Shown here: positions 21,200-62,772 of the stretch, one piece after another
Position numbering within the stretch: position 1 is the first letter of the stretch
Layout: every line of letters begins with the position of its first letter
From: Trissonchulus latispiculum
Lineage: Eukaryota; Nematoda; Enoplea; Enoplida; Ironidae
Assembly (NCBI GenBank): GCA_030248195.1
Contig: JASAND010013532.1
Coordinates: 1 to 64,000, forward strand
Length of the DNA: 64,000 nucleotides
Reading direction: 5' to 3'
Notes under the pieces: model-generated
What the model was told of the DNA's origin: nothing
Databases searched by the model: none
What the model saw: only the letters and a program-made list of their open reading frames with translations
Program-made: the position numbers and the translations under genes

Positions 21200-21207
21200 T
21201 CCGACAG

Positions 21208-21852: not shown

Positions 21853-21879
21853 TCCGAAAGTTCGGCTGGCTGTGTGTTT

Positions 21880-21912
21880 GTTTGTTTGTTTGTTTGTGGT
21901 GTTTGTTTCTTT
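21880..21912 (+). repeat. (TGTT)n microsatellite
   Basis: Six to eight tandem tetranucleotides of the TTTG type, directly after foldback copy 3. Confidence 0.8.
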
Positions 21913-21973
21913 GTTAAGCTGTGTTGTCTTGTGTTTGAGTCGCTAATTACAATTCATATGTAGTTAACAAGAG

Positions 21974-27458: not shown

Positions 27459-28234
27459 GTGACAGAGTTTTCTGTTACTGTTAGACCGTTGATTAGCGGT
27501 GTTTGAACGGTGCCTATTGCCTAATATATACTAATATTCTTCAAATGCATTATTAACCTAAACGTTTCCTATTGCTCTTACTCTTGCTTACTAACACAAT
27601 ATAACATATAACATAATATAGTAGGTATAACATACCTAGCAATTTTTCTGAACGGTGGGGATTTTGACAGAATTTTGAAATAGAGAAGTTTGGCAGGCCG
27701 TGCCCAAACACTAATTACTTCAGCCTGCAAAAGTTGATTCCGCATTTTTAACGATGTTATCTAATACTTTTAAAAATTTTAGCTTGTCAAACAAGTAAAA
27801 ATACTACGTGGATAACATTTTATTGTTTATTTAGCTAATATCACTATATAGTACTGATTCCAGCAGATATAATACCATGTGGTATGGCCTGGTGTCTGTA
27901 TTTCTGCAGACTATAATTCATCATTCTGTTTAGCTTGAATGTTGGAGACAAACGGCAGTACCTTCTAATGCATACCCCGTGCATAAATTAGACTTCTAAA
28001 TTTTATTGTAGCCAAGCTTATGTAACACACTGCATACCTATATCTGTTTAAACTTCATTTCAGATACGTCAATGTAAACCGTTGGGATCTAATTTGTATT
28101 ATTTTAACTACGTGATTTATTCCATGAAACATTTGCACTTTTCTGGACAAATCTAACATACTGCATATCTGCATGTTCATACTGAGCCTAATTGGTCACT
28201 GAAATTACTCCTACCACTTCTATTCTGTTTCTAT
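27459..28234. other. Upstream region of the globin gene
   Basis: AT-rich, with repeated ATAACATA words near 27600. No clear TATA-linked start could be fixed. Any 5' untranslated exon of the globin would lie here. Confidence 0.3.
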
Positions 28235-31282: not shown

Positions 31283-31355
31283 ATGAATTTTGTGAGTGAA
31301 CGAGTCATCATATGCCTTCTTTGGTGGTATCTTTTTGTTTTCCATTCTTCGCATG
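31283..31355 (+). CDS. Exon 1: signal peptide or signal anchor
   Basis: It encodes MNFVSERVIICLLWWYLFVF followed by HSSH, and ends in phase 1 before GTAAGA. A basic n-region, an ~16-residue hydrophobic core and a small-residue site (SSHA across the junction) fit a cleavable signal peptide. The start was chosen because the ATG is 12 bases after an acceptor-like ttttcctag (31263-31271), and the hydrophobic core follows directly. The same frame is open upstream to 30986, so a longer cytosolic N-terminus is possible. In that case the segment would act as a membrane anchor, as DEG/ENaC helix 1 does. Confidence 0.6.
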
Positions 31356-34300
31356 GTAAGAGTTTAGTAAATAAACATTTATTGTGTAACTGTAGTTTTG
31401 TCTCGCTTTGAAAACCACAGGACAGTACAGCATTGTGACATTGAAAGTTCTCTAAAATTTAGTGTGGCAAAAGTCAATGGAAGTATAATCAACATCAAAT
31501 CAGACTGTGAATTCTTCTGAATTGGAAGGAGAGCGAAAGAGCTTTTCACAGCTGTTTATTCCCACCGAACGAAACTTAATTGGCTGTTAGCAACACCCTC
31601 TCCAAGCGATACCACTGTACTTTCTATAAAGGGGCTGTATGTAGTAAAGGATTACGGTAGGTTAAGCCTGGTCCCGATCCATTAACGCATTAAATTAACA
31701 TCCAAGCAGATTACTGAAACATTTTTCTTCCATTCTTGAAAAGGGAGGGGTATCCCGCAGCAAATCAGCTTTAAAAACAAATGGGAAGGAAATGTGCAGA
31801 TTCACTAAAAACTATCCCTCTACAATATCTAATATCACCTCACCGTTTTGCGAGGACTAAGTCGCCAACTGAAAATTAAATTGCTGCAGTTGCAGAGATT
31901 TGTTATTGAAGATTTTGGTTTAAAATTGGTCCCAGAGCCTCTGTAACCGAATCGCTCCTTATTTGCCAAAAACTAAAGGATCGTGCTTACAGTTTATAAA
32001 GCAGCTCTGTCACATCTCTGACTTGTAGGCTTCCTCCATCAACAGTTAACAGTATAGTCACGGGTCACGGGGTAGTTGCCTTGTCTGCTTCTACTACTTC
32101 TCAATATCTTTCCTTCTTCAACTTCATTGTCCTCTGAAAATATGCAGAAATCGCTTGGCGAAAATATAACTTTCTCGAATTCAAATTATGGATCGACAAT
32201 GTTCATCTTTCCCTTTGTAGGAAGTTTCCGAACTCAGTGCGCCATAATGCTAGACCAGCATTGATCAAGTAACAAATATTATCAAAATATCACACGATAG
32301 CAACAGTGAATCAGATGTCGCGTAACTCCTTAGCTTTTACACACTACAGAGTTCAGAGTGAATGGCGACGTGTGTTCGTCACATAGCCAATGATGGACGC
32401 AAGTCCGGCCTTGTTAAATGGGCCTTGAGTAATTGTGAAACTAATAATTCGGTGTCACCTATAACTCCACCCGGATCGGAAAGGAGGAAAACAAAATTGT
32501 GGCTGGACATAATCGGTGTAGCACCAACTTGGAATTGGGTATAGTATGTTTCGAACTTTCCTCTACATCCCCTCTTTCTTCGTCAACCCTTCCTATGTTC
32601 TGCGGTCTGAATCGTTGTTTGTTGATGTTGTTGTTGTTGTTTGAGGAGTATATTTTGGGACATCTTCATATTTTGGTCGTAGTGGCTGGCTTCTCACCGT
32701 TTTTTCTGAGAGTTCTTCTGAAAGGTTAAGGTAATTATGTAATTTGGATTGCATTTATTTATTTCATGCCACTTCTTTAACATAAGGATTTTTGTACGTT
32801 TTGGTTTTAGCGGCCGCATTGAAGAAAGGAAACAAAGAGATTGACTTGAGACAAGCTGAAGATTGTTCACCAACTGATCGAGCCATTTGTGTTTCGGAAT
32901 ACGCCCATGTGAATACCATCATGAATCTACTAAATCCCTTCGGTCAACCCAGGGACAACGATGGCGAGATGGATGCTTACGATCAACTTTGTCATGTGTA
33001 CAAAGATTTCCACGACTGTGTGGAGGAGCTAGCTCAGACGAAGCCTTGCATTTTTGATGACCCGTTGACTCAGTTTATCACAATCACAAATGTATGTCAG
33101 TGTATACATTTTGCGAAACTGGTAACGTATATACCGTCTAAAGTTGTAAATTGAACTGACACTACCCTTAAAACCGGAACCGCCACTGGGGAGTAGAGTG
33201 AGGTGGCTGGTGAAAAAATTAATAGCACAAGATAATGCTTACATCTTGATCTTATTATAATTCTGTTTCACCTCGAAAGGTTGAATTATTCCAAAATCCC
33301 AGATTTTACAACTGACAATCTACCGTTTTTAATTTAGAAGCTCAAGCTATTAAGGTTCATGAAACTAAACTGTCTATCTTTACTTTTTGTATTTCTAAAA
33401 TCTGCAGATCTAATCTAATCTAATCTAATCTAATCTAATCTGTAATCTAATCATTATAATAAAATCTAAAATTATTTAGTTGTATTTCAGCAGTTCCTGT
33501 GCGATGAGGAAGCCCATAATCTGGTCCGACAAAATATTGAGTGCATCCAGAGTTTGAGGCTGGAAAAGGATTCACTGGACGAGTGTTCACAGTTTCTGGA
33601 CGGACTGCAGGATCGACAGAAGATCGCCAGCATTCTGCAGGGAACGTCCGAGGAAGAAGTCTGCCCCCATATTATGGAGTTGGTTGATTTTGGAAGCTGT
33701 TTTGCCGACGCCATCGATCGAGTTTGTGACGAAGGAGCCAGACCGCTTGCTGACAGCATGCTGAAAATTACTGCTGAAGTTATTGACAGAGGAATGTGCG
33801 AACCTGGCATAAAGGAAACAAGTGAAACAGGTAGGCTAAATATGTATAAGTGAAGAGTTTAATGTACTGAAAAATTTAAAGTAGATTCTAATGAGCAAAT
33901 TCATGCTGAAAATTTCAGTAAAAGCGAGCTGCTGCTGCCCACAAACAGTAGGAACCGTGCCTTGTTGGTTTAGTGAAATTCAATAATACTTAATTATTAT
34001 TATACATGCCAAATGTAAAAGATTCCTTAAAGGCTAAAGGTTAACAGGTTCCATGTTCCAGCCTGGCAAATGTCTACCAACGTCGAAGTCAAGGTGTAAG
34101 AAAAAACGTACCATGGGGTTAGCAGGATGGGGTCTTATCTCGTTTACCCCCCCCCCAGTACTCAAAATCCTTAAAACTTGACCAAATGAGCTAAAATTTG
34201 GTGTGGGTATGTTTTCGACCACGCTGAGTTCAAATATCGCAAAATTTTTCGATTTCTAAGGGGGGACCAAGGGATACCGAAAAATGTTTTGTCTTCGATT

Positions 34301-40300: not shown

Positions 40301-43300
40301 CATTAAGATCATGGCCTATCTTTGTAACCTGCTCAAAGACAATAGTGGCAATGCTTTGGAGGGATGTAGTAAACTAGTGAGCGGTTTGTGATCAGTTTGA
40401 AGCGTAAACGTCGATCCTATGAGGTACATGTAGAATCTTTTGATAGCAAACACGATTGCATAAGCTTCCTTTTCTATTTGTGAATAATCTTTTGAGCGCC
40501 GTTTAATGTTTTGGAAGCAAATGCTATCGGTTTTTCGGTGCCGTCCGGAAATTTGAGACTGAGAACGGCACCTGCACCATAAGCAGAAGCATCGCAGGCC
40601 AAGATCAGTGGTAGTTTCGACAGACATCTTCGCCAATGATAGAGGCGCTCGCTCCCGTGTCTAGTACTTCCATTGGAATCCATTCACCATTGATGCAAAG
40701 CTTAGTACACCATGGTTCGTTCTGGTTTTCGTTTACAGAATGTAACTCCCCACTGGATAGTCTTCTGGATAACAGTGACCTTGTTCAGGACTCGATGAAG
40801 TAGGTTCTTCTTCGTCTTTATTGAAAACTTGATGTACAGGGGCTTTTCTGGTTATCGTCTTGGAACGATCTGGGAACTGTCCGGGAGGTTTAGGCTTATG
40901 ATAACAAATTCTCGCGAAGTTGCCCCAATTTTCCCACAGTTATTGCACTTCTGATCTTTGGCCAGACATCGATGATTCCGAATATTTTTCGATCCACAGC
41001 GGTCACAAACGGAACCATTGTCGTTTTTGGCGCCTCTGGTCCAGTGAACGGAATCGGACTCGCACTGTCCATTTCTGATCTTCTGCATACAGCCATCCAT
41101 CGGATTCAGAGGTTTCTAAGGTCAGTGCCAGCTTAACAGCTTTTGCGAATGTCATCTCTTTCTCACTGAGCAGTTTTCGCTGAATGCCAGCATTTGCCAT
41201 TCCCACAATCAGCCGATCCCTCATTTGTTCGTTTATGTTGTCGGCAGAGAACCCGGCCCATGTCGCTAGCCTGCGCACCCGCGCTATGAAGTCGTTCAGT
41301 TTCTCAGACTTGTCTTGGTAGGCTGTGTGAAATCGGAACCTTTCCATTAGTTGTGTTGGCTCCGGATCCAGATGATCTTTCAAAGCGCCGCACAGCTGTT
41401 GAAAGGCAGGTCTTTCGGTTTCTCAGGGGCAGTCAAAGATTTCCAGAATGTCATAGGTGTCCGGACCCACGGACACGATAAGGAAAGCCCACTTTCATGG
41501 CGTCAACCTCTACCTGCTTCACCAACAACGCCGCCTCTAGTCGTTCCTGAGGAAACGGAATTAGGATTCTGTGCCTCCGTCAAATTGACAAAACTGGAAG
41601 TTGTCCATCTTAGGATTCGCAGCGCCAATGTAGTGATGCGCTACTATGTACAACCAATTCAAAACTGACACAAACTTCACTCGAACCGTGGCTTATATAA
41701 GGTACGAGTTCTGGCATAGAATGATTACAAAGTAGGTACAGCAAAGTAACATATCCTCGCCAAAGTTAGTACTTTTAACATTTTAACCCAACTCCATAAC
41801 AAAAACTCAACTCCATAACGACCCAGAGACTCGTCCTGGAGCGTCCTTCCAACGGCACCCGGTACAGTCTTTGCTTGCTTGCTGTTTACTGGCACCGGAC
41901 ATCCCTAACGGATTTGTTTGTTTTAGCCATCACGACACCGTCGCTGGCTGTTCCGTCAACCACTACAATAAGCATCCAAGTACCATGTGAGCGACTGTTA
42001 ATTAATGTCAAGAACTAGGGATCTGTACGACATAGCATTGAGACAATCTTTTCAGCACACGTTAAACACAAATGCAGTTGGCAATTCATGTTGAAGCTGC
42101 CAAATTTTTGGAATTGAAGCTTCCCAAACAGATTATTAGAATGTATCCATTTTCAGAGCTACCGAATCAAGTTCCACTGCTTGTAGTGTCATTCATAATT
42201 ACTGTTTATTGCAGCTGTGACTACGCCCTCTCTGGCTGTTCCGTCCATTACAACACCTAGCATAGAAGCACCATGTGAGTTTCCCAGAGTTTAGAATAAT
42301 TAATGATCGCTTTTCTAGCTCCTTATACTTAGTAACAGTGGTTCTTAGGTAAACTCTGGAAAAGTGCAGTTTTTGCTTGTTTGCTGTTTACTGGCACCGG
42401 ACATCCCTAACGGATTTGTTTGTTTTAGCCATCACGACGCCGTCGCTGGCTGTTCCGTCTATCACTACGCCAAGCATCCAAGTACCATGTGAGCAACTGT
42501 TAATTAATGTCAAGAACTAGGGATCTGTACGACATAGCATTGAGACAAGCTCTTCGGCACGCATTAAACCAAAATGGAGTTGCCAATTCATGTTGAAGCT
42601 ACCAAGAGATGAGGGAATTTTGCAGCAGTTTTAACGGCTAACAAATCAAGTTCCACTGTTAATAGTGATAGTAATATTTCTAATTACTGTTTATTGCAGC
42701 TGTGACTACGCCGTCGCTGGCTGTTCAGACACTTACAACACCTAGCATAGAACTACCATGTGAGTTGGCTTGAGTTCAGAATAATTAAGGAACGCTTTTA
42801 AAGCTCCTTAAACTTAGTAACAGTGATAATCAGAGTAACTTTTTGTAAAAGAGACGTTAACAATTGTTTTCTGCGGACTCAACTCAACTTCATAACGACT
42901 CAGAGACTCGTCATGGAGCGTTCTACCAACGACACCCGATGCAGTCTCTGCTTGCTTGCTGTTTACTGGCACCGGACATCCCTATCTGATTTGTTTGTTT
43001 TAGCCATCACGACACCGTCGCTGGCTGCTTCCGTCTATTACTACGCCAAGCATCCAAGTACCATGTGAGCCATTGTTAATTAATGTCAAGAACTAGGGAT
43101 CTGTACGACATAGCATTGAGACAATCTTTACAGCACGTTAAATTAAATTAGCACATTAAAGCACATTACAGCACACGAAATAGTCGATTTAATTAAAAAA
43201 TTAAAACGTGGTAAATTAAAACTGAATAAAATGCTGGATATCCATCAAATTTTAAGGTTGTCCGTATAATCAGTATGTTTATAATCAACTCATTTCCTGA

Positions 43301-52300: not shown

Positions 52301-55300
52301 GAACTGTCACCAGATGCACAGGCGGCGCTTGCATTTTGTGACTTTCGATGACCTTTGTAGTTTCGATAGGAGTGCCATTCTTTCCTTAACTTGCACTCTT
52401 TTGCCTAGTGTCCTGGCTTGTTACACTTGAAACAGTTACCTCTTTTGGCATATGAGCCTTGTATACTTTTGTGCTGACAAAGCCGTTTCTTGACTTTCAA
52501 CGACTTCCTGACTTTCTTTCCTTTTAGCCTCCTGTTGAAGGAGACGACTTTGTACGAAGCTGAGCGTCAACTCACCATCTCGGGAATCTAACGCAGTGAT
52601 TAGATTGTTGTAGGAATCTGGCAAACTTGACAGTAAAATCGTCACCAAATCTTCTTCGCTGGCCACGGCATTGATAGCCGCTAACTGATCCGCCAAATCT
52701 TTAATTTGGTTTGTATGCGTTAACAACATATCCTAGCCTTCTGTCATCACAATGCGAAACAGTTCTTCGCAGAAACAATTTGTTCACCAACGTTCTGCGC
52801 TCGTAATGGGCCTTCAAGTTTTCCTACAGTTCCTGGGTAGTCTTGGCAGCCTTTACCATGAAAACCTGAGAGTCATCCAACCCTAGAACCAGAGTTGCTA
52901 AAGCTCTATTTGCCATTTTTCGGAAGACCCGGAGTAGCGCCAGAAGGTAAAGCTTCAGTTCCCTCGACAAATCCCCAAAGATCTCTTTCCATCAACAACA
53001 TCTGCATTTTAAATTTCGACATAGGGTAATTAGTCCCGTCACATTTATCAATGGAGAGTCCCTTCGATTGCTCCGCCATCACCGGTTCTGCTGTAAGTGA
53101 GAAAAACGGCAGACAAACCAAAAAGGATCAGAACGTCATAAAAAGTCACTTTGATGAGGGTTACCAAGGACACCCTGGGCCCATAACCTAATGGGCAGAG
53201 TACTTAATGACAGGGCCAACTACTGACATAAAGCAAACTTTAGTCTGCACATAACTATATCATCATGTGATGACTACTCTTGGAATAGTTTGTAAATAGT
53301 TGTTATAATGACGTTCAGTCAGTAGCAAAACTTAGGTGAAGATATTTGAGATCATAGGTTTAACTGTTTTAACAAAAGGTGGCTGAGCTCGAACCAAAAA
53401 TGCTAGAAGGTGTCAATATTAGTCCGAACAAGCGATCTGCTTATATTACGCATTTAAATATTGTCTTCTGCGTTTTAAATGCTGCCCTTTAGCTCATATT
53501 ACATCTTTACAAAGTTATCGTAGACTGTAAGGAGCATTTTTGTTACTTGCTTATATAGTCATAGGCCGTAATGTACTGTCCCCCAACCGCTTAGCAACAT
53601 TGTAATAGGACCGCTTAGCAACATTGTAGTAGGTATATGAAACGTACCCATAATAATTTGCCATGTCCCAAACTATCTACATGCCGAATTTCAACTAACT
53701 GTGACTTATCAATAAATTGATATGGACAGCACTTGTGCATGGCAAAAGTTAGAGAATGCGCAAACTAAATAATCTATAGCTGCTCCTACAACTGATACCA
53801 TTTTACCAATTTTTATATGTTTAACCGTCCACAGTAAGTCAACGGCCAGCGGGCTATGATTGCTCCATCAGTATACACAACGCGACAGAAGCAATGCACC
53901 ACAGTGTGACTATGCGCAATGTGTTCAGCGACCCCGATAACATGTACACGCATCCGACTTAATGGACAAGTTCAGTGGACAAGCTACGTCTATTGTTGCT
54001 TTAGATTTTGCACTTTGGACTTTAGAATCATTACGATATTTAAATTTTTGAAAAATAATAATTATGTTGAAAAAGATTCGCAATTGTAGAGCACGCTCAA
54101 ATTGTGGAATTTTAACGTTCTTATTCATTTGCTAGAGGAGCTGAGAGTTAGCTATTCTTAACAGATATTGCTTTAGAGTTTCTACTTACCTATTTGTAAT
54201 AAACTGTTAAATCGTTGGCGTTTCAAAATAGTCAAATTTTATGAAACTATTGTAACTTTGAAGAACTAAGGTTTGTTCTTTCAAGATCTGAAAGTTAGAG
54301 TATTTTGCTTGGACCTGAAAGAAAACAAAAGAGTTAGACATTTTCAGGTAGTGAATCGCTCCGTCATCAAAACTATAAAAATAATTTTCAGAACATTCCA
54401 TATTTCTGCTGGAAATAGCGCCGCTAGTGCTTGGAAACTCGAAAAATTTTCCGGTGAACCAGAAGGATCTTCTTACTTACAATCTATATCCCGAAAACCA
54501 CGGTTCCTGGTTTTGGTGTTAATGATATATTGTTGTTAGCGTCATTTTTTAAAGTGAAGATTCACACTTAGAGCGCTCCTCAAATACAACATTTGGGAAA
54601 TTTGACCTCTTCATTTATTTGCTAGGTGTGCTCGAGAGATCCCTCTCCATTATCCCTCTCCATTTACCTATTTGTAAAGGGTCGTTCAAATGCCATTTTC
54701 AAAAATGGTCAAATCGGATGAAAATTGTTTAAGCTTGCACTCACATTTGTTCCTTCAAAAATTGAAATATTCTGGTGAAAGCGGAAAGGAACGAAAAAAT
54801 ATTTAATGTTTCAGGTGGCGGAGTTGATCGACTAAACTTTGATGTGTTGCAGAGATCAAAGATAATGGAGACTTTGAAGACTTTGGAAGCATTGGTGACA
54901 GTGGCAACTTAGGTGATGCCGAAAAACTTGGTGGCAACTTAGGTGATGCCGAAAAACTTGGTGGCAACTTAGGTGATGCCGAAAAACTTGGAGACAACGG
55001 AAACTTACGTGGCACTGGAAACCTTGGAGACAACGGAAGCTTAGGTGGCACTGGAAACCTTGGAGACAACGGAAGCTTAGGTGGCACTGGAAACCTTGGA
55101 GACAACGGAAGCTTAGGTGGCACTGGAAACCTTGGAGACAACGGAAGCTTAGGTGGCACTGGAAACCTTGGAGACAACGGAAGCTTAGGTGGCACTGGAA
55201 AGCTTGGAGACAACGGAAGCTTAGGTGGCACTGGAAACCTTGGAGACAACGGAAGCTTAGGTGGCACTGGAAACCTTGGAGACAACGGAAACTTAGGTGG

Positions 55301-58300
55301 CGCTGGAAACCTTGGAAACAGTGGAAACTTAAATGGCACTGGAAACCTTGGAGACAACGGAAACTTAGGTGGCGCTGGAAACCTTGGAAATAGTGGAAAC
55401 TTAGGTGGCACTGGAAACCTTGGAGACAACGGAACCTTAGGTGGCGCTGGAAACCTTGGAAACAGTGGAAACTTAGGTGGCACTGGAAACCTTGGAAACA
55501 GTGGAAACTTAGGTGTCACTGGAAATCTTGGAGACCATGGAAACGTAGTTGATGCTGGAGACCTTGCAGACAATGGGAACTTAGGTGAAGATGGGGAATT
55601 TGGAGACTCAGAAAATGAGGAATTTCAAAAGGAAGTGGATGGTCTGATGAGCTTCATGGAGGATTTTATGGTAAGAAAGTATTTCGAAGTTTAATTTAAG
55701 GAATGCATTTGGTTAATTATCTTCAAATAAAAGCTCATTTCTTCTGGATTATTGCACATACGTTATCACTCTGCGGTAGGTGCAAAATTGGGTTCAGGCC
55801 TGGAGACGCTAATTTCCACCTACTACTGCCTGAAGGGAGTCCTGCAGAGCTAGCTAGTGATCAGGACTGGATAGTAAGGATATAGGGCTAGGAAGTAGGG
55901 ATATAGAGCTACGATCTAGGGACATAAGGACTAGTAGCGGCCAAGATAAATAGATAGGTTGGAATAAATACAGTCGCCCTCTGGATTTTATCATAAACGT
56001 CCTTTGGAGGCTTCTTGTCAATTGATAAGGTGGGATGGGTTTTGTATCCCAAATATTCTTTTGTGAGAGTATGATGTAGTATGTTTTATTATATAGTTAT
56101 AGTAAGTAGTATGTTTTACACACATCAACACACAGACAACTTATTGTACAATATATATGTCTGGTAATGTGCAAGCAGTACAAAACATATTGACATTTGT
56201 ACTATGTTACAATAACCAGCTACTTACTACAGCCATCACTTAACAAATAAATGCACTGCGGCTAGTTTTGTTATCTATAGTACTGTAGACTCGCCACCGT
56301 AACTTCTGATAAAGTTCATGGCCTGCTCGCGCACGTCTCCAAAAAATGTATGTTAGTATAGGTATAGTATTTCACTAGCGACTACGTTCTTCTTAACCAT
56401 CTTTGCATTGTTTTTAATCAAGGATACTGTAGACTTTTTCTTTCAGTTTTGTGGTTGTTCACTGCATTGAAGTGGTCAAATATATAGTGTAGTACACGAA
56501 ACAAACAGCTTAAGCTTGCCAAACGTAATTTCTGGTACAAACAGTTTGCTGCTTCAAAAGTAGCAAGTTTGGGCTTTCCAACCCAACTATTTGCAGTTCA
56601 GTTTCTAGTACTGTTTTAGTCTCGAGGAATAAACTGAAGTTAGCCAATTTTTCTTCCTGGGAATTTGTTTTATCTGATCCAAAAGTTTATCCTAAATTTC
56701 TTGTTTGTACTTTGTAGCCCATGCTGTAAACCGTACACGCGTATTGCATTTCTGAATTGGCACAAACCAACCATCTTCACAAAATTTAAATAAAATAGGT
56801 TGGGTAAATATCTTGACTGTAAGTGTACATAAATTTGTTGTTGTTTACTCATTGTGCATAAAACTTGCTTCAGGGTGATCGGTTTCGCCATAACCCGCCA
56901 AATCCTCCGCCAAATCAGCTGTCACTGGAAACCGCTTTTAGAGAAATGCTAGCAATTATAGCTGCCAACATGAGCCAGGAGGAATTAGCGAAAATGAGTT
57001 ACAATCTCTCTGAGTTAGTCTCTTCTTGCAGCTGGAACGGTGTGGTGCAACCATGTGAAAAGTATGTTCACCAATATTGAATAGCAGTGCATATCATAAT
57101 CATGTTGCTTTGTACTACAAAATACCGCAAGCAATGGTGTACTAACAAGGGCATCAATTTTTGAGTCATTATGTACTTGATTTAGTATAAATTAATCAGT
57201 CTTTGCGACTGGGCTGATTGCTGACAGAGCCTTAAATTTACATTAAACAGCAAACAATCTTTGCAAATTTTAAAACAAAATCAGGGCTAAATTCGAAACT
57301 TTATTTTAAGAAATTATGGACAGTTATTTTAGTTTTTTCCAAATTTTTGCGTATTTAATTTAAAATCTGTGGGAATTCTCAGTCTAGAACGAATATATAG
57401 TACGACCTTTCTAAGTGGACTCTTGTCTCTTGGTCCTGTATTTGCTAATCCAGGGCAAACTTTCAATTTATGAGGGGTCCCATACCCACCTCCCATGTCG
57501 AGACAAAATGCTTCTGTCGAGAGCCATAATAAAGTCACAATGCGGTTCCAGCTAATTTAATAGAAATCTGAACATCATTATGTTGGCGATGATCAAGAAA
57601 TGAAAAAGGCTACATATGTGTTAAGTGGTAGCAAATATAATTCGTGGCTTAAAGACATGTATTTTTCCTAATTTCAGTTTATTTGTCAGTAAAATGCTAA
57701 GCCCGATTTATGGTAGCTGTTTTACGTTCAACAACGCATCGGAAGAAAATCGAAGTAGATCTGAACGGGCTGGAGAATACTACGGTTAGTAGGACTACAC
57801 CATTGCTTATGTAGTCCATTTAAATAAAAACTTTACACCACAACTGTGCACTATTTCCAACCTTACCCGCCAAAGAAATATTGCGTATATCATAAAAAAT
57901 GCTAATTACATATATATGTAGAAGTTACATTTTTTATAGCTAGCACATTTTCATCAGGAGAAAAACCGTTGTTAGAATATATATACAGACTTTGCTAAAT
58001 TCCATATAGTTTCTATTAAACTGCTTTAATTCACTTAAGATTTGTGTCATGCAAACCATTGGACTCCTTGAATTATAGTCAGTCAACAATTTTAGGTCTT
58101 CAAGCAACCATGAAACTGCATCCAGGATCCTACCTTCCATATGTGTCCACTGCGTCCATGAAAATCCTAATAACTTCTCCACGTCACTATCCAAGCTTAA
58201 CGCTGAATCCTTATCCAGCTGTTGCCGGTCAAATAACAGCCTTCGCAATGATTATGGTGAGTTTCCTGTAATTTGTGCATTGTAAAGCTTAGAAATCACT

Positions 58301-61300
58301 TGCAGGAAACGCAATCACTCAACCTGACTTTATGCGAATTTATATTTACCAACTCATATATAGTAGGGTTTAAGGCCCTACTGACAATATTCACGTGTCA
58401 TGTATGTAATACTTCCTTGTCTATGTTTTTCGTCAGGAAACTTGTATCTACTTTGCATAAACTAATTTGAATATTCTGAATTTTGGACTTTAAAAGGGGT
58501 ACGCTTCTCACTGTTGGGGGTTCAAGCCGTCTCAGTTTACCTTATCCTTTGGGATCCCTGAGTGCTTCTTCTTCTCGAACTTCCGGGTAGACTAGTAGAA
58601 AGCCTCCAGTCTGGTGATAGAATGGGCACGGATTCCCGAGGTTATTAAAGGTGGGCGTTTCCATTCAATTATGCCATATTTTCTGCTCTATGCTCCATTT
58701 ACTTATTGGATTTCTTGTCAATGTAAGTCTGGTATATGTAAACCTTTACTGTTATCGTTTTATACACCTCTTCTTGTCTACAGTAAATTTATAATCGGCC
58801 ATTTGGCCTTTGTTTTACCTGTAAATCTTAGTTTTCGGTTTGTTCAGTCGGTAATTTTTACAGAATTCAAATCTGGCAGTCCTGCTTGTGTTAGACAATA
58901 GGGCCACGTTAAGGCAAATCTCGCTGGCGAGACTTGTCGTTGGCTGGCCTGGACCTATCTCCAGTTCAGGTTGCGTATCCATGACTACTGCACAGCACCC
59001 CCGTAAAGTTGTCGGGTCCCACTAGCCCCGTGGACCAATTGCTTACACTTATGTTCATAATTCACATTGTCAGAAGTCCATGACATATTCCCACAAATTA
59101 AAAGATAAAAGAAAATTATCACGAAGTATTGTATACGCACAGAAAGTTTAATTGATCTGTTTGTAATGCATTTAAATACCATAGCCTTCTCTCTACACAT
59201 TTGCATAGTGCACATTTGCCATTATGCCGAAAAGACAAATTGTGGAATGCCAAGTGTTATCAAATATTGCAATCTGCCGCTCTGAAGTTCGGCGTTGGTA
59301 CCAGCATTCCGCGAATTGCCCGTCTTCGTAACATGTCACTAACATATATTATCTACCCTCTAGAAATAAATATATTTGTAGACATCATTAGAAACTTTAA
59401 CATGCGCAATTGTTAATAACTGTCATCTGATTTTAGACCACTGTTGTCCAGGTGAATCGAAGAAACGCTCCTTGCGCCAGTGATAACGCAATCTTAGAAT
59501 TTGCTAATTTTCCAACTTCTAAATGGAGCGCTGTGGTAAGTTAATAATATTTTAAAGTTGCGTTATCACTTAGAGTCATAATATTCGAGTTTTTAGATAA
59601 CCAAATTCGGGAACAGTTAAATTAATTTGGTAGCATTCTAGTTGTTCAGTTGCTCAGATGTTATCCATAAGAAATCCCTAGTTCTTCTCTTAGTGGTATA
59701 CCAGGGACACAAAGCTGCTTATACATCCTACACCCTACGTTAACCTAAGCCCAAAAATGTTATCTTAAAGCAATTAGAAAACAATGTTAAAAACTAAATG
59801 GTGTTAATTTTGGCTTGTATTCAGCAAAAATTGCTCCCGAAAGGGTACCCACATTAGATCTTTACTCTAACTTAATCTTAACGAGTTTTCTCTCTAACTA
59901 TAATTTGTACGCAGATTAGGTGAAACTTGAAAAGCAAGAGTGCCAGCATTGATCTGGGTATGTACTTTCTTGGAACTTAAGTACAACACGATTTTATGTT
60001 ATCTATTTCTGAAATGTTACTTGGTAGGGTTGTGAAGTTTTATCAGTCCAACATGAGAAAATTAAGGCCTGTGGATGTGCCGACTCTACGAAGCCTCTCC
60101 CTGTCAACAGTACAGCCTGCACAAATCCCACTCAATGTAAAATTTTTTTCTGACGAGTATATAGTTTAGTTTATTTCTATTATTATTATTATTATTATTA
60201 CGTCTACCATTATTTTTCCATTGTCTTAATACTTTTCACTTCAAAGAATAACTAAATGTTGTACGTCGACAAGTCATAACTTCAGTATCGCTGTGCAAAT
60301 CCCCTCGCTACCTAAGCTCCTATACGACGGGGATGACATGACACCGCAGTCGCACCGACTCTTAGCTGCCTGTTATAATGTGTTTGTACACTGTTCTTTT
60401 GGTATTTCTTTATTTAGTGAAGTGTCTTCAAAACTATACTGATACTCATCCAGAAACAAACACTGACTGCATGCCGCCCTGCAGGTAACACTTTCCTGAA
60501 AGAACTTAGCTAAATGTATAAACTAATGAACCTTATACATGTGCAGAAGATGTGTACAGATCAATCAATAAATAATAATTTTAATTTTTACTTTCAGTTA
60601 AGATCAGTATATGCAAATTAAATATTTTGGCTAGCGAATTTCTGTTTCCAGGCAAGAATATTTTCGAACAATCACTACAAGTTTGAAATGGCCTGCTATA
60701 AATGCAATTGTTTCGGTTAGTTAGATCCTATGTATATTGTATAACTCCTTAAAATCTGCTTCTTATGGATAAATTAGATTCTTGGACAGGGATTAAAACT
60801 GAAGGCTGTTTGTATACTGAAAATCGTTAAGCAGGCAACGGCTGTCTTAGTAGTAATCAAACAGTTTCTTAATGTTAAACAGGAAACTGGTTTCTTTTCT
60901 AGTTTTGATCTTTGGCGGTTCTGGAAATTTAGTCGTGCCCATGGAAAGAATCCGCTAACCTCTTAAACGCTAAAAAGAGATTCGCTGTGGCATGGGGAAG
61001 TAGTCACCCGATCAAATATGTACCAAGAATTTAAGATATTAATAACTACAAGGGGCTCTCTTCCGTTGTCTCTCACTCCCAAGATATATCAGAATAGAAA
61101 CCTCCTTATTAACCCACTTTCCCACTAATTGGGCAGAAAAATTTCGTACTCAATTAATTGACAGATACTGACTAACTTCCGGAGGACGCCCTTATTCTCC
61201 CTCAAGATTAATTCTCTAAACTTTGTTGCTCTAGCAAGACCAATGCCATAACAAAGCTGATCATTGTAATTCCACTAGTGATGAAGAAAGGTTGGTTTTC

Positions 61301-62772
61301 GCTTTTTGATGTTTTCATAAAGATCTTCGCAGGACATAGGATGGGGTTGTACAGTATTAAAATTTCTAAACTTCGTTTGACAATCCCATGTAATCAGTAG
61401 TAATGTTTGAACTTAATTAATTAACGGGAGAAGTTTTTCAACAAACATGTAATAATATGTAGGTACACATTCCGCTACGTAATGTCAAGTCAACTGCAAC
61501 ACGGTAATTGTGTAAAAACAATATCGATAATATAACAAGATAAATACGTGTTGACAAAAGAAAATGTTTTATGATACATCACTAATTTTACTATTGTAAG
61601 CACCATACATGTGCTTGGGGGGTTTGGGGGTCTCACTCCCAGACCTGGAGCTCACCCCCCTCCAGAATCCGGATTTTTCCGTTTTCTTTGGCAAAAAACC
61701 GCAAAAATCTGGTTTTCCGGCTGCCTCCACCCCCCGGTTCACCCCCCCCCCCCAAGAAACTCCCCTCCTGCACATGTCTGATAAGCACTCTTTATCGCAC
61801 GCATCTGATATCGTTATTCACTATAGGAGACTGCTAAATATATACCTACATACCGTTTGTACTTTTAGTAACACCAGCGAAGCAAAGATAGTGATTTTCT
61901 TCAACGATTTAAAATGGTTCACTTTCAATGAAGTTCCCATGGAGACGGTATGGTAGTCTGTTTACGATTTTTTCAAACAGCACATTTCGAAAGCTGAGGT
62001 TTAAAAATGCGTTCTAATATGGCTGGAGACGAATTAAGCACACAACAACAACTTGCTCACACTTTTGATTTTTACCTTTGCTACGGGCAATTCCACTGTA
62101 TATCCATCCATCCATCCATCCATGTTCTCAAAATAAACATATTCTCGTATAAAGCCTATTGAGCCGTTCATTTGGAAACGATCAGTACATATGCTTGGTT
62201 TGATTGTGCCTAGTTGACCGCTCTTTGTGTAGCCAAACGAATGCCCCTCTGGCCAGAGGTTTTCAGTCGCTGTAGTGACATCTGTCTCTCTTCCTTTATT
62301 TGTCATCCCCCTTAATTAAATATATCTCGATAGCATAGGCTAATGCAGAAGGTCTGCCAGTCCATGCCCCCCCCAGTCCACACAAGGTAAAAGCCCTACC
62401 GCCATCGGACTTTGGGTAGGAAAAAAATTGCCAAAAGAATTTTTTGTTGCAGATTTTGTTAAAATATGAGAAAATCAAAAATTTTAACAAAATTAGCGTT
62501 AATATCTTCGAAAATTTGCTTGGGGAAAGCCCCCCTCCCCTAGGATTCGACCCTATGTTAAGGTATACTCGACAGTATTACTATTTAAAATTAACCCAAC
62601 GTTACTTGGCTTTGCTAAGCCAGAAGCCTAATCATTGTTTTTATTTCAGATGGCCACGATGCTAAGTGATATTGGGTCCTCCTTGGGCGTATTTGTGGGG
62701 ATGTCAGTAATTTCTGTCCTGGAACTTTTTATAATTTCTGCTCAGCACATATCGTCAAAAATTGGGAAATAA
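31283..62772 (+). CDS. Giant chimeric DEG/ENaC-family gene (overall model, ~26 exons)
   Basis: The model joins exons whose phases agree across every junction except one near the 3' end. Predicted order: signal sequence; 12-Cys domain; Thr linker; Glu/Thr repeat; Pro/Ser/Thr 20-residue repeats; Gly-rich 12-residue repeats; DEG/ENaC ectodomain from the Cys-rich finger onward; second membrane helix with the pore motif; 15-residue cytosolic tail. It totals about 1,390 codons. DEG/ENaC proteins are trimeric Na+ channels with two helices, cytosolic ends and a large ectodomain. Here no first helix of the usual kind and no FPAVT-type post-helix segment was seen, so the signal sequence would either be cleaved (giving a type I protein) or serve as the first helix. 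Alternatively there are two genes, a secreted mucin-like one and a channel whose first exons were missed. The phase match from 50167 (phase 1) into 54853 favours one gene. Confidence 0.6.
32811..33091 (+). CDS. Exon 2: first half of the 12-Cys extracellular domain
   Basis: Entered in phase 1 after ggttttag and left in phase 0 before GTATGT. It encodes about 94 residues with six cysteines (AEDCSPTDRAIC, YDQLCHVY, FHDCVEEL, KPCIFDD). The G left by exon 1 plus CG gives Ala, so the two exons join in frame. The domain resembles Cys-rich secreted ectodomains of ecdysozoans (DUF19-like spacing), but no family is certain. Confidence 0.7.
33411..33450 (+). repeat. (AATCT)n microsatellite
   Basis: About eight tandem TCTAA pentanucleotides, 40 bases upstream of the exon 3 acceptor. 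Confidence 0.85.
33491..33830 (+). CDS. Exon 3: second half of the 12-Cys domain
   Basis: The acceptor is tgtatttcag and the donor GTAGGC. It enters in phase 0 and leaves in phase 1. It encodes 113 residues with six more cysteines (QFLCDEE, NIECIQS, LDECSQF, EEVCPHI, FGSCFAD, DRVCDEG, GMCEPGI), helical and acidic by composition. With exon 2 it forms a domain of about 200 residues with an even number of cysteines, as expected of a disulphide-bonded extracellular fold. Good third-position G/C bias compared with the introns. Confidence 0.75.
34130..34703. mobile_element. Palindromic foldback MITE, copy 2 (8-bp TSD GCAGGATG)
   Basis: A 574-bp palindrome in intron 3. The ends are GGGTCTTATCTCGTT plus a C run, and the inverse. 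GCAGGATG occurs at 34122-34129 and 34704-34711, a perfect 8-bp duplication. Arms carry CGACCACGCTGAGTTCAAAT and TCTGAAGTCCGTTTTTCGAT, nearly identical to copy 9710-10301. It probably inserted recently, because arm identity and the duplication are intact. Confidence 0.9.
34712..35951. other. Intron 3 remainder
   Basis: No exon recognised. Open stretches at 35198-35659 are G/C-richer but end without donors that fit the gene phase. Confidence 0.35.
35952..36035 (+). CDS. Exon 4: Thr-rich linker
   Basis: The acceptor is tttgtttcag and the donor GTAAGC. It is an 84-nt phase 1-1 exon. It encodes ETTPATKDITTEFAVDEP, then AVTVKSTVAT. High Thr and Val with no Cys suggests an O-glycosylated spacer. 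Confidence 0.65.
36600..36860. mobile_element. Truncated foldback copy (intron 4)
   Basis: One arm of the 9710-10301 family: GGGGCCAAGGGGAAGC, TTTTCTGGGGTGCTGAGCAC, TTCGATTCAGCTTTTCGTTA and the AAGCTTA-rich centre. The second arm is lost after about 30 bp (CAAATAAAAAGCTGACGAAA). Confidence 0.7.
36900..36980. mobile_element. Truncated MITE end (family of 21974-22394)
   Basis: AGAACAGAAGCTCTCTAGTAG, then TAATTATGCACTCTTG, resembles the right terminal repeat of the palindromic MITE at 21974-22394, with substitutions. Confidence 0.4.
37038..38003 (+). CDS. Exon 5: Glu/Thr repeat domain
   Basis: A 966-nt phase 1-1 exon between aatttag and GTAAGT. After TLTTETSSVEETEAE it encodes about 300 residues of ETEEE / TAEE / TDEE units with no aromatic or Cys residues. 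The charge is extremely negative, and threonines are regularly spaced, as in O-glycosylated mucin-like or ion-binding stalks. The repeat is built from GAAACTGAGGAA-type 12-mers. It is free of stops in several frames on both strands, so the correct frame is chosen by splice phase at both ends and by the flanking non-repeat peptide (GETSEGKS). Copy number is likely to vary. Confidence 0.75.
38610..38705 (+). repeat. Tandem 22-bp repeat, 3-4 copies
   Basis: CCAATTTTCTTACCCCTTGT plus GG is repeated in tandem in intron 5, preceded by diverged GGGCAATTTTCTTACCCC. C/G homopolymers follow at 38710-38750. Confidence 0.8.
39097..39960 (-). pseudogene. Gypsy integrase, near intact core
   Basis: The zinc-binding region (WWPGIDGIIRQF, DCSHCQQSQ) lies around 39790-39913, with a frame change into the core. 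The core has IHIAHLGPF/VVDSYS, TLVSDNGTCF and HHPQSNGIAERY, containing the Asp-Asp-Glu positions; the C-terminal part (KFRIGQPVWYKRY) is the usual beta-barrel start. The first catalytic Asp of the usual HIDF motif reads His here (CIHIAHLGPF), so the protein may be inactive. It belongs to the 38755-41801 element. Confidence 0.8.
40316..40683 (-). pseudogene. Gypsy protease-RNase H junction, reverse transcriptase deleted
   Basis: Reading on the minus strand, the aspartic protease active site LDTGASAS lies at about 40640-40665. Within about 15 codons it passes directly into the RNase H start LILACDASAYGAGAV. The protease C-terminus and the whole reverse transcriptase are absent. RNase H continues with a frameshift near 40500 (SQIEKEAYAIVFAIKRF, TLQTDHKPLTSL). 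The junction is an internal deletion. Confidence 0.8.
40852..41383 (-). pseudogene. Gypsy gag with zinc knuckle
   Basis: The gag region reads MERFRFHTAYQDKSEKLNDF and then RLIVGMANAGIQRKLL, typical of the retrotransposon gag fold. After a frameshift near 41090 come two Cys clusters (CDRCGSKNIRNHRC, CNNCGKIG), of which the second has lost its His. It is part of the 38755-41801 element. Confidence 0.8.
41927..41986 (+). CDS. Exon R1 (type A 20-residue repeat)
   Basis: A 60-nt phase 1-1 exon between gttttag and GTGAGC, encoding ITTPSLAVPSTTTISIQVP plus a Ser split across the junction. It directly follows exon 5 in phase (T plus CC gives Ser). The flanking intron sequence is shared with R3 and R5. 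Confidence 0.75.
42215..42274 (+). CDS. Exon R2 (type B repeat)
   Basis: 60 nt, phase 1-1, between tattgcag and GTGAGT, encoding VTTPSLAVPSITTPSIEAP. It shares exon and intron sequence with R4 and R6. Confidence 0.75.
42429..42488 (+). CDS. Exon R3 (type A repeat)
   Basis: 60 nt, phase 1-1, encoding ITTPSLAVPSITTPSIQVP. About 75 bases of the downstream intron (TTAATTAATGTCAAGAACTA, GGGATCTGTACGACATAGC) are nearly identical to those after R1 and R5. Confidence 0.75.
42700..42759 (+). CDS. Exon R4 (type B repeat)
   Basis: 60 nt, phase 1-1, encoding VTTPSLAVQTLTTPSIELP. Pro to Gln and Ser to Thr substitutions set it apart from R2 and R6. Confidence 0.75.
43004..43064 (+). pseudogene. Exon R5 (type A repeat), frameshifted
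   Basis: Splice sites are intact, but the exon is 61 nt: one extra base in GGCTGCTTCCGTC (the other copies read GGCTGTTCCGTC). The frame shifts after ITTPSLAA, and inclusion would break the protein downstream. Because all neighbours are phase 1-1, skipping R5 keeps the frame. It is either a dying exon or a sequence error. Confidence 0.7.
43140..43720. mobile_element. Insertion in the R5-R6 intron with GGGCCGGGC repeats
   Basis: The R5-R6 intron is about 780 bp, against ~210-230 bp for R1-R2 and R3-R4. The extra DNA is AT-rich and ends in a 130-bp tract (43559-43690) with four copies of a GGGCCGGGCCGAGCGGG word. Similar G/C words mark the ends of the hAT-like element at 6872-7714, so this is probably a related, truncated element. 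Confidence 0.5.
43846..43905 (+). CDS. Exon R6 (type B repeat)
   Basis: 60 nt, phase 1-1, between gttgcag and GTGAGT, encoding VTTPSLAVPSITTPSIEVP. Nearly identical to R2. Confidence 0.75.
44095..44154 (+). CDS. Exon R7 (repeat)
   Basis: 60 nt, phase 1-1, between gtttcag and GTGAGT, encoding ITNPSLAVPSITTPSIPGP. The flanking introns no longer match the R1-R6 unit, so this is an older duplicate. Confidence 0.7.
44155..47690. other. Long intron between R7 and R8
   Basis: Contains a TTTTTGATTTT/AAAATCAAAAATC palindromic run (44555-44625), a possible decayed repeat exon near 45120, and an open acceptor-linked stretch at 45792-45976. Two copies of CGTATACTCCGTAT (near 45980 and 46819) flank about 840 bp of non-coding, partly G/C-rich DNA (46020-46330), possibly a retroposon. 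An (AATT)n run lies at 46475-46493. No certain exon. Confidence 0.4.
47691..47750 (+). CDS. Exon R8 (repeat)
   Basis: 60 nt, phase 1-1, between cattttag and GTGAGT, encoding VTTPSLAVPPTATQSVPLP. The junction residue becomes Tyr or Asp rather than Ser because this exon begins AT. Confidence 0.7.
48018..48077 (+). CDS. Exon R9 (repeat)
   Basis: 60 nt, phase 1-1, between acatttag and GTGAGC, encoding LTAPSVAGPHITTPKVPPP. Confidence 0.7.
48307..48372 (+). CDS. Exon R10 (diverged repeat)
   Basis: 66 nt, phase 1-1, between atttcag and the weaker donor GTGGGT. It encodes LKTLSPADSPISGPNAPQDM plus P, keeping the Pro/Ser spacing but little identity. Confidence 0.55.
48373..50110. other. Intron between R10 and R11
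   Basis: No exon recognised. CTGCTGCAGCAGGAAT near 48972 is a short palindrome. Confidence 0.35.
50111..50167 (+). CDS. Exon R11 (diverged repeat)
   Basis: 57 nt, phase 1-1, between cgtttcag and GTAAGT, encoding IKAPSLTFPAVENPGSMP. Its C plus AG of the next exon gives Gln, so it joins the Gly-rich exon in frame. Confidence 0.6.
50273..51206. mobile_element. Foldback element made of CATATGCATATG palindromes
   Basis: Both ~225-bp arms (50273-50500 and 50985-51206) hold six or seven ~28-bp units of the CCCATATGCATATGGGGCAAG type; each unit is itself a palindrome. The arms are inverted copies of each other, starting from GTGTATAATTG words. The interior has a ~90-bp segment (ATTTAAGCCTAAATTATCATCG) twice in direct order (about 50685 and 50805) and once inverted (about 50905-50985). 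It lies in the intron before the Gly-rich exon. Confidence 0.8.
52080..53121 (-). mobile_element. Ty1/copia retrotransposon fragment (gag to protease), antisense
   Basis: On the minus strand: a copia gag start (IDKCDGTNYPMSKFKMQMLL, LWGFVEGTEAL) near 52920-53090; the gag middle part (EDLVTILLSSLPDSYNNLI, LQQEAKRKES) at 52436-52729; a zinc knuckle (CFKCNKPGH) near 52415-52440; and protease-like sequence further on to about 52140. Stops and frameshifts separate the parts. Integrase, reverse transcriptase and LTRs were not seen. It lies within the intron before the Gly-rich exon. Confidence 0.75.
53122..54852. other. Intron before the Gly-rich exon
   Basis: No exon or first membrane helix was recognised on the + strand, although this is where a conventional channel N-terminus would be expected. 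GGACCGCTTAGCAACATTGTA is partly duplicated at 53595-53630. Confidence 0.4.
54853..55670 (+). CDS. Gly/Asn/Leu-rich repeat exon
   Basis: 818 nt between tgttgcag and GTAAGA, entered in phase 1 and left in phase 0. It encodes 272 residues: an acidic start (IKDNGDFEDFGSIGDSGN), three GGNLGDAEKL units, then about 13 copies of a 12-residue repeat (GDNGSLGGTGNL and variants) encoded by a 36-bp minisatellite. It ends in a non-repeat acidic helix (EEFQKEVDGLMSFMEDFM). The repeat frame is fixed by both flanks. The reverse strand is also open (a Pro/Phe-rich shadow) and is not considered real. Probably a flexible or beta-solenoid-like extracellular spacer. Confidence 0.75.
55671..56873. other. Intron between the Gly-rich and first channel exons
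   Basis: No exon recognised. A poly-phase GGATATAGGGCTAGGAAGTA repeat lies near 55876-55910. Confidence 0.35.
56874..57061 (+). CDS. Channel exon 1: start of the DEG/ENaC ectodomain
   Basis: 188 nt between tgcttcag and GTATGT, phase 0 to 2. It encodes GDRFRHNPPNPPPNQLSLET, then a helix (FREMLAIIAANMSQEEL) and LVSSCSWNGVVQPC. The last part is the family hallmark Cys-x-x-Asn-Gly-x-x-x-Cys, which precedes the GxCYTFN motif. The FPAVT-type strand that normally lies 60-100 residues earlier is not present. Confidence 0.8.
57678..57784 (+). CDS. Channel exon 2: YGxCFTFN motif
   Basis: 107 nt between atttcag and GTTAGT, phase 2 to 1. It encodes LFVSKMLSPIYGSCFTFNNA, a close match to the conserved Tyr-Gly-x-Cys-[YF]-x-Phe-Asn motif of the DEG/ENaC palm, then a basic/acidic stretch. 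Confidence 0.85.
58096..58256 (+). CDS. Channel exon 3: palm/thumb segment
   Basis: 161 nt between caattttag and GTGAGT, phase 1 to 0. It encodes GLQATMKLHPGSYLPYVSTA, then SMKILITSPRHYPSL and AVAGQITAFAMIM. It matches the family pattern G-L-x3-L ... Y-x-P ... (V/I)-x-I-(H/T)-x-P ... P ... G. The acceptor was chosen because only it continues the phase of exon 57678-57784. Confidence 0.8.
59437..59535 (+). CDS. Channel exon 4
   Basis: 99 nt, phase 0-0, between gattttag and GTAAGT. It encodes TTVVQVNRRNAPCASDNAIL and EFANFPTSKWSAV. The Pro-x-Cys pattern is at the position of the conserved LPxPYxxC. Confidence 0.7.
60028..60136 (+). CDS. Channel exon 5: Cys-rich thumb
   Basis: 109 nt, phase 0 to 1, after ttggtag. 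It encodes GCEVLSVQHEKIKACGCADS and ends NSTACTNPTQ. The ACGC pair is the family's Cys-x-Cys. The usual upstream partner of the C-x3-C pair is not encoded in exon 4; a very small exon near 59930 could supply it, but no phase-consistent candidate was found. Confidence 0.7.
60176..60200 (+). repeat. (TTA)n microsatellite
   Basis: Seven to eight TTA triplets in the intron after channel exon 5. Confidence 0.85.
60418..60484 (+). CDS. Channel exon 6: Cys-x-x-Pro-Cys
   Basis: 67 nt, phase 1 to 2, between tatttag and GTAACA. It encodes LKCLQNYTDTHPETNTDCMP plus PCR. C-M-P-P-C matches the family C-L-P-P-C motif, with Cys pairing to the previous exon's Cys likely. Confidence 0.8.
60652..60715 (+). 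CDS. Channel exon 7: Y-x3-T-x-S-x3-WP
   Basis: 64 nt, phase 2 to 0, between gtttccag and GTTAGT. It encodes QEYFRTITTSLKWPAINAIV plus S. This matches the conserved (Y)-x-(T/V)-x-x-S-x-x-x-W-P strand that follows the CPPC motif. Confidence 0.8.
60716..61868. other. Interval holding a presumed missing exon
   Basis: Exon 7 ends in phase 0, while the next exon's natural acceptor needs phase 2. Family members have about 20 more residues here, so a small exon is expected. No single candidate fits both phase and length. A C/G-rich hairpin at 61607-61783 (CATGTGCTTGGGGGG against CCCCAAG ... CTGCACATG) lies in this interval and is probably a small MITE. Confidence 0.45.
61869..61947 (+). CDS. Channel exon 8: pre-helix strand
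   Basis: 79 nt between acttttag and GTATGG, left in phase 0. It encodes NTSEAKIVIFFNDLKWFTFN and EVPMET. It corresponds to the N-x-(A)-x-(L/I)-x-(V/I)-(Y/F)-F strand just before the second membrane helix. A phase-0 acceptor at gcaaag (61888) would shorten it and would remove the phase conflict with exon 7, but it has a poor pyrimidine tract. Confidence 0.7.
62100..62125 (+). repeat. (CCAT)n microsatellite
   Basis: Six tandem ATCC tetranucleotides in the last intron. Confidence 0.85.
62650..62772 (+). CDS. Channel exon 9: pore helix and C-terminus
   Basis: 123 nt with the stop TAA at 62770-62772, after ttatttcag. It encodes MATMLSDIGSSLGVFVGMSV, then ISVLELFIISAQHISSKIGK. LSDIGxxLGxFxGxSxxSxxEL is the DEG/ENaC signature of the second helix. 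Gly-Met-Ser stands at the Gly-x-Ser selectivity filter, so permeation could be retained. The cytosolic tail after the helix is only about 10-15 residues. Following signals: AATAAA at 62768-62773 overlapping the stop, and ATTAAA at 62807-62812. Confidence 0.88.
   Translation: MATMLSDIGSSLGVFVGMSVISVLELFIISAQHISSKIGK

Follow-up and report, generated by a model that had tools for sequence, protein, structure and literature searches.

A nematode DEG/ENaC gene with in-phase Gly-rich and Pro/Ser/Thr repeat exons upstream of its finger-to-pore-helix part: a likely subunit with its own extracellular tether

The best explanation for a stretch of DNA from the nematode Trissonchulus latispiculum (the 'window': positions 1 to 64,000, forward strand, of contig JASAND010013532.1 in assembly GCA_030248195.1), to which we attach about even confidence, is that it harbors a DEG/ENaC gene with an intact part from the finger to the pore helix, preceded in phase first by a Gly-rich exon and, farther upstream, by a run of Pro/Ser/Thr exons of 60 bases, and that the product is likely a membrane-anchored subunit furnished with its own extracellular tether. 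The placement of a Pro/Ser/Thr-Gly stalk ahead of the DEG/ENaC ectodomain is solid, and the splice phases suggest that the array, the Gly exon and the channel exons would be joined in one transcript.

A reading made from the sequence alone had proposed a larger fusion, in which splice phases link a signal sequence, a 12-Cys domain and a Glu/Thr repeat to these same stalk and channel exons. Every one of the listed elements (signal-like exon, 12-Cys domain, Glu/Thr, Pro/Ser/Thr and Gly-rich exons, channel motifs) is present in the sequence, and their phases do connect: a 25-exon model on the + strand, with further channel exons added (including one of 56 bases), encodes 1383 amino acids with a single stop, at its end, and with consistent phases throughout. 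As to the fusion itself, one part stands, in that the Pro/Ser/Thr and Gly repeats are in phase with the channel half and keep their order in a second copy of the gene; the inclusion of the 12-Cys and Glu/Thr parts has been weakened, by a second copy of these on a different contig (C16234) and by a paralogue on another (C50). The predicted exons, with one segment between them that bears on this question, are as follows.

31283..31355, + strand: predicted first exon, signal peptide MNFVSERVIICLLWWYLFVFHSSH/A; ends in phase 1; second copy on C16234; tie to the channel uncertain
32811..33091, + strand: 12-Cys domain, first half; phase 1 to 0; no Pfam match; second copy on C16234
33491..33830, + strand: 12-Cys domain, second half; phase 0 to 1; second copy on C16234
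35952..36035, + strand: short Thr-rich exon; phase 1-1; by eye, a similar exon follows the 12-Cys paralogue on C50
37038..38003, + strand: Glu/Thr repeat exon, 12-base unit; phase 1-1; third codon positions hold most of the variants; in-frame copy on C16234
38356..38753, no strand: switch of colinearity from C16234-like to C10987-like; possible false join or structural variant
41927..41986, + strand: Pro/Ser/Thr mini-exon 1; 60 nt, phase 1-1
42215..42274, + strand: Pro/Ser/Thr mini-exon 2; 60 nt, phase 1-1
42429..42488, + strand: Pro/Ser/Thr mini-exon 3; 60 nt, phase 1-1
42700..42759, + strand: Pro/Ser/Thr mini-exon 4; 60 nt, phase 1-1
43846..43905, + strand: Pro/Ser/Thr mini-exon 5; 60 nt, phase 1-1
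44095..44154, + strand: Pro/Ser/Thr mini-exon 6; 60 nt, phase 1-1; read from the ATG at 44064, it would be an alternative first exon, signal-like at its start
47691..47750, + strand: Pro/Ser/Thr mini-exon 7; 60 nt, phase 1-1
48018..48077, + strand: Pro/Ser/Thr mini-exon 8; 60 nt, phase 1-1
50111..50167, + strand: Pro/Ser/Thr mini-exon 9 (divergent); 57 nt, phase 1-1
54853..55670, + strand: Gly-rich repeat exon; phase 1 to 0; its tail, KEVDGLMSFMEDFM, is like the 44-nt adapter exon of three paralogues
56874..57061, + strand: channel exon A, start of the finger; phase 0 to 2
57678..57784, + strand: channel exon B (predicted), YGSCFTFN
58096..58256, + strand: channel exon C (predicted)
59437..59535, + strand: channel exon C2 (predicted)
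60028..60136, + strand: channel exon D (predicted), ACGCADSTKPLP
60418..60484, + strand: channel exon E (predicted), CMPPC
60652..60715, + strand: channel exon F (predicted)
61235..61290, + strand: channel exon H, 56 nt, inferred from phase; the least conserved, with 3 of 56 bases different in the second copy
61869..61947, + strand: channel exon G (predicted), AKIVIFFNDL
62650..62772, + strand: last exon, with the pore helix LSDIGSSLGVFVGMS, a short tail and the stop; AATAAA at 62853

The ten + strand exons between 56874 and 62772 read without an inner stop and encode the finger-to-pore-helix part of a DEG/ENaC subunit. The earlier assignment of a DEG/ENaC C-terminal half is borne out by a Pfam search, in which the predicted channel half matches the ASC family with an E value of 3.4e-47 and 162 bits (cut-off 23.6) over profile positions 131-454 of 455; the closest solved sequence over the same half is that of gamma-ENaC (PDB 9blr chain C), at E 3.1e-26. 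Both queries consisted of the 331-residue channel half without the 56-base exon. The gamma subunit of ENaC has a first membrane helix (TM1) and carries no added stalk. Because the phases of exons F and G are incompatible, the 56-base exon was placed between them; it has the better acceptor score of two listed candidates and fits the length of the corresponding loop in gamma-ENaC. Thirteen cysteines, an odd number, are found in the channel half. Eight of ten conserved cysteine columns (each found in 17 to 20 of 20 paralogues) are kept and two are lost, columns 422 and 486 (present in 20 of 20 channels each) having been lost together; their placement in the thumb and the pairing of the conserved columns are presumed by analogy to ASIC1. 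The channel motifs YGSCFTFN, CMPPC and LSDIGSSLG..GMS are all present, and the last exon supplies a second helix with a G-x-S selectivity motif, corresponding in kind to the 'GAS belt' described for DEG/ENaC channels (PMC10424705), followed by the poly(A) signal downstream.

Taken singly, the channel exons match a profile built without this channel weakly (exon A, E 0.023; exon B, 0.2; last exon, 1.0), and the top rank that the gene's own exons obtain under a full-length profile containing this channel was set aside as circular. In a protein database search with the channel half, 1009 candidates were scored and not one reached E 0.001; the collection is seemingly without animal channels, so that this null has no bearing on novelty. 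The DEG/ENaC set of the genome is large, with at least 95 ASC matches listed, many of them in single exons that cover nearly the whole profile; in that family search, one prokaryote control (Thermotoga maritima) also scored above the cut-off.

A near-identical copy of the channel is found on contig C10987 of the same 733.8-Mb assembly, with 93.9% identity over an 8-kb region. The splice sites of all ten channel exons are kept there. Over the 1053 exon bases the two copies show 9 differences, and of the 351 codons 5 are altered synonymously and 3 with a change of residue. This corresponds to a divergence of 0.85% in the channel exons vs about 4% outside them (Fisher p 4e-9, where the ~6900 non-exon bases are an estimate that includes ~290 bases of the Gly exon). 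The Gly exon of C10987 is in frame and differs in repeat number; matches to the core of the array exons span 11970-25254 of that contig, and nine 60-base phase 1-1 exons are listed in 7.5 kb of its array region. The positions of array core, Gly exon and channel in both copies thus indicate that order and strand have been kept, in a comparison that leaves out C10987:25501-42381. That the locus is a decaying pseudogene or a piece of assembly debris is very improbable: one array exon is frameshifted (a + strand copy at 43000-43060, 61 bases in length, for which the matching C10987 exon at 24388-24447 has 60) and retroelement-like reading frames lie in the introns, but ten channel exons with their splice sites have been kept in two copies, at a divergence about a fifth of that of their surroundings.

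The codon-position patterns of two of the repeats, Pro/Ser/Thr and Glu/Thr, go beyond chance. Upstream of the Gly exon are nine short phase 1-1 exons, eight of them exactly 60 bases long, of the type VTTPSLAVPSITTPSIEVP. Among the six that lie in 41.9-44.2 kb, pairwise differences at codon positions 1, 2 and 3 number 38, 34 and 128 (of 285 each), and the similarity of exons 1 and 2 is 72%, against 32-40% for the sequence flanking them. Searched across the 734-Mb genome with up to 2 mismatches, the exon core gives 35 matches, found only on C9181 (5) and C10987 (30), all of them on the channel's strand, with 0 on the reverse strand and 0 for a reversed control. Eight 60-nt exons, an excess of third-position change and these 35 core matches together give the array a mucin-like character, in the sense of tandem Pro/Ser/Thr repeats under selection. 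The Glu/Thr exon encodes a 313-residue repeat (202 Glu, 77 Thr) with variants at 9/306, 19/305 and 80/305 of codon positions 1, 2 and 3, respectively; in the Gly repeat such a codon-position signal is absent (13/202, 17/201, 12/202). The predicted stalk would comprise ~450 residues in this copy and is probably longer in the second copy, given the 30 array-core matches on C10987; if the Glu/Thr part belongs to it, the length would be ~800 residues, or some 289 nm at 0.36 nm per residue.

Whether that part belongs is the point at which the larger fusion has to be weighed. We consider it probable that two neighbouring or falsely joined genes are present, one (31-38 kb) for a secreted 12-Cys/Thr-rich/Glu-Thr protein and the other a Pro/Ser/Thr-Gly-channel gene that would really begin with an exon at 44064 or, on C10987, ahead of the array. 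The second copy of the 12-Cys domain is on C16234, and none was found on C10987 (23 of 23 candidates scored). C16234 also holds the Glu/Thr exon, in frame and with the same end and donor as in the window, remains colinear with the window only to about 38.36 kb and then diverges, the roughly 24.9 kb beyond this point being without an array-core match. C10987, as far as it was read, is colinear from 38.75 kb, continues leftward with further array exons, and is without a 12-Cys match in the 12 kb before its first array match, at 11970. On C50, a 70% identical 12-Cys domain is followed (L065:1488-3385) by Thr-rich exons, PAN/apple-like exons (by eye) and one exon like 35952-36035, all of phase 1-1, and there is no channel match on C50 among the matches listed, the two channel searches of the genome having scored 93 of 2621 and 121 of 292 candidates. 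The parting of the second copies at 38.36/38.75 kb, together with the C50 paralogue, indicates that the first half may be a gene of its own; the 12-Cys head may well belong to a neighbouring gene, and a break between the halves is more likely near 38.4-38.7 kb than at 50.2-54.8 kb. The signal-like ATG at 44064 would suit a separate start as well, but a signal-like start is also encountered once in a 28-kb background (in 30.0-54.85 kb the signal-like starts are those at 31283 and 44064, and the opposite strand of this interval has none). Further points weigh against two genes: phase 1-1 exons lie on both sides of 38.4 kb, so that the phases are continuous; no terminal exon (acceptor score of at least 12, 8-200 codons, AATAAA within 400 bases) was found in 38.0-41.9 kb; and this genome may plausibly carry large insertions in one haplotype and not in another. 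The same search gave three weak terminal-exon candidates with AATAAA in 44.2-47.7 kb and four in 50.2-54.8 kb (seven, spread over 44.8-54.1 kb), which speak against the joining of array and channel in one gene. The complete fusion, a single-pass type I protein of 1383 residues in which signal peptide, 12-Cys head, Glu/Thr repeat, Pro/Ser/Thr and Gly stalk and channel half follow one another, is possible, though we lean against it. In its favor are a complete open model with consistent phases, a topology that fits (N-terminus outside, pore helix last) and the failure to find TM1 in the window or on its contig after 64 kb; it depends, however, on one join that the second copies do not replicate, and the 12-Cys paralogue on C50 is without a listed channel match.

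Within the switch segment, a 22-base tandem repeat is found at 38610-38702. The idea that the join (38.36-38.75 kb) holds a dispersed repeat is poorly supported, with one 58-base, 83% match elsewhere among the loci compared. A PDB search with the 12-Cys domain gave two matches, at E 0.36 and 0.68, which were taken as chance, and an AlphaFold model of the second 12-Cys exon alone is helical, with a mean pLDDT of 48. Some 4 kb after the channel, on the + strand (contig 66991-67329, L021:2991-3329), an ORF with a signal-like start and several cysteines resembles, by eye, one half of the 12-Cys head.

No recognisable exon for the first membrane helix, which in this family comes with an HG motif and a post-TM1 FPxVxxC strand, was found in the window. 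A Pfam scan of 146 plus-strand ORFs in 29-57 kb (145 of the 147 that passed a filter, from 211, with exon A added as a control) yielded an ASC match in exon A alone. An N-terminal profile, built from 20 channels of this genome and run against 2419 six-frame window ORFs of at least 18 residues, gave a best E value of 0.47; a TM1 exon of fewer than 18 codons would escape this search. In a leave-one-out control, for which three near-identical pairs were dropped together, the N-termini of 20 of 20 channels were recovered (83-residue core, E 6e-20 or better), and for L022, a degenerin outside the profile, both exons of its split N-terminus were recovered within the locus at E 1.3e-12 and 9.7e-7. 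Under a full-length profile built without the window's channel, the spliced channel half scores 89 bits and the long ectodomain exon of L022 scores 97; these values are close, so that a TM1 of similar divergence should be detectable, although single exons of the window's channel score weakly under that profile. The rest of the contig (64001-109423) gave no match below E 0.7. The cysteine that follows TM1 in 20 of 20 channels is also missing here, and the cysteine that we take to be its partner, from the structure of ASIC1, is kept at residue 77 of the channel half. This partner is present in 18 of 20 channel rows, which are all 18 with letters at that place; the rows of L014 and L016 are cut there and are not counter-examples.

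These results bear on a further alternative, which we regard as somewhat improbable, in which the gene encodes a full two-helix channel with TM1 and the N-terminus far upstream of the array, the stalk (or, in paralogues, DUF5648 modules) being a very large insert that separates the finger from the first palm strand. Sequence outside the searches, namely C10987:1-11970, upstream of the array there, and C10192 below 22573, could hold such an exon; TM1 is encoded on a separate upstream exon in L014, L016 and L022, and in L022 an acidic, disordered stretch occupies roughly the corresponding position. However, no TM1 match is found in the 56.8 kb upstream on the window's own contig, nor in about 10 kb before exon A of the paralogues on C10192 and C3907 (best E 0.30 and 0.33, respectively), and the partner of the post-TM1 cysteine is left orphaned. 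The notion that L014 and L016 are retrocopies was rejected: they start at ASC 128-129, yet belong to a distant channel with a TM1 exon upstream.

Exon-A-type matches occur in at least 21 other places on 20 contigs, some of which are probably second copies of each other. In the paralogue on C10192, exon A runs from phase 0 to phase 2 (by eye), as in the window, and in C10192, C11827 and C18384 it is preceded by a 44-base adapter exon, of phase 1 to 0, that resembles the tail of the Gly exon. The adapter search relied on a tail-motif filter and covered 7 paralogue places, 3 of them positive; no comparable candidate was found in C3907 or C14693, and exon A was not placed in C13140 and C14786. The 12-Cys domain gave no better than E 4.1 (C10192) and 1.6 (C3907) in about 10 kb before exon A. 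Among five upstream ORFs of C10192, one matches DUF5648 at E 2.2e-6 and 28.4 bits (cut-off 25), three at 0.0066-0.015 and one not at all; C3907 has one weak match (0.082) among three ORFs, C11827 has a match 4 kb upstream, and none is listed for the window's contig (66 of 66 candidates scored). C10192 bears two DUF5648 matches downstream of its channel as well, and thus more than one gene may be there. DUF5648 is described as a three-bladed propeller for which glycan binding has been suggested, and is called widespread in bacteria (PMC12853789). Strong matches to it (E to 3.9e-34) are also found on C353, C5275, C2108, C17669 and other contigs, with no channel match listed on those.

The window gene and the paralogues on C10192 and C11827 therefore have in common the adapter exon and the phase of the first channel intron, and differ in what lies upstream: DUF5648 modules in C10192, C11827 and perhaps C3907, in place of the Pro/Ser/Thr and Gly repeats of the window gene. 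With an adapter exon common to differing upstream modules, the phase-1 boundary seems to accept various extracellular modules. A wider reading can be put forward tentatively, and we would not yet favor it: that the members of an expanded DEG/ENaC family have given up their N-terminal half (cytosolic gate, TM1 and first palm strand) and taken on shuffled secreted modules instead, at a single conserved phase-1 splice boundary. These modules would be mucin arrays that vary in length, Gly repeats, DUF5648 and perhaps the 12-Cys head, and the product would be a single-pass, self-tethered receptor for force or glycans that joins canonical channels.

Returning to the preferred reading of a tethered DEG/ENaC subunit, a mechanism can be proposed from its predicted parts. 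The stalk would be O-glycosylated, might extend into the matrix or glycocalyx, and could thereby put the palm and finger of a trimer under load. Canonical two-helix subunits in that trimer would likely provide the missing first helix; the tethered subunit would co-assemble with these through its ectodomain and pass force on to them. The whole function, including any role of the tethered subunit in a channel, is conjectural in this sense, and the protein may instead act as a decoy or in adhesion.

Several known systems offer partial parallels. The nearest, C. elegans EGAS-1 to -4, named for 'EGF plus ASC domain', gave currents no different from controls in an oocyte screen (PMC10424705). Compared by description only, EGAS and the window gene are alike in combining a DEG/ENaC (ASC) half with an added extracellular module, which is EGF in the former and Pro/Ser/Thr and Gly repeats in the latter; the EGF family is absent among the 21 Pfam families matched by the 146 plus-strand ORFs of 29-57 kb at E up to 1. 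As the EGAS name implies, module plus ASC is an already known kind, of which the repeat stalk, the DUF5648 modules and a missing TM1 would be new variants. For the MEC-4/MEC-10 touch channel, with its separate matrix proteins MEC-1, MEC-5 and MEC-9, a force-from-filament model has been presented (PMC9108448); our working model likewise has a DEG/ENaC subunit pulled by extracellular filaments, but the proposed tether consists of separate proteins in the former and would be contained within the subunit in the latter. The N-glycans of alpha and delta ENaC act as shear-force tethers (PMC7958617), a similarly glycan-rich link from ectodomain to matrix, provided by N-glycans at single sites rather than by a long repeat stalk.

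The sequence-only reading knew of no described DEG/ENaC protein with this architecture. In a literature search that took in the openings of abstracts, no description of a fused tether or of a TM1-less DEG/ENaC protein of this architecture was found, and to that extent the claim holds; the more general combination of an extracellular module with ASC is, as EGAS shows, known (PMC10424705). How the extracellular tethers of DEG/ENaC mechanosensors are built has been described as largely unknown (PMC7958617), and the candidates named in these sources are separate proteins or N-glycans (PMC7958617, PMC9108448). An in-frame stalk with a variable number of repeats would make tether length genetically alterable, and comparable between natural copies; if TM1 is truly absent, the gene would also offer a test of whether the pore helix by itself is enough for a DEG/ENaC subunit to assemble and gate.

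Elsewhere in the window, a single-exon globin ORF (28157-28951, + strand; Pfam PF00042, E 1.5e-8) lies 2.3 kb upstream of the signal-peptide exon. ORFs resembling gypsy-type and copia-type retroelements (by eye) occupy 39100-41100 and 52100-53100 on the minus strand, within introns of the model, and C10987 also holds, near its array, the sequence of the 39100-41100 region. At 50652-50883, inside an intron, a 112-base unit is tandemly duplicated with 97% identity.
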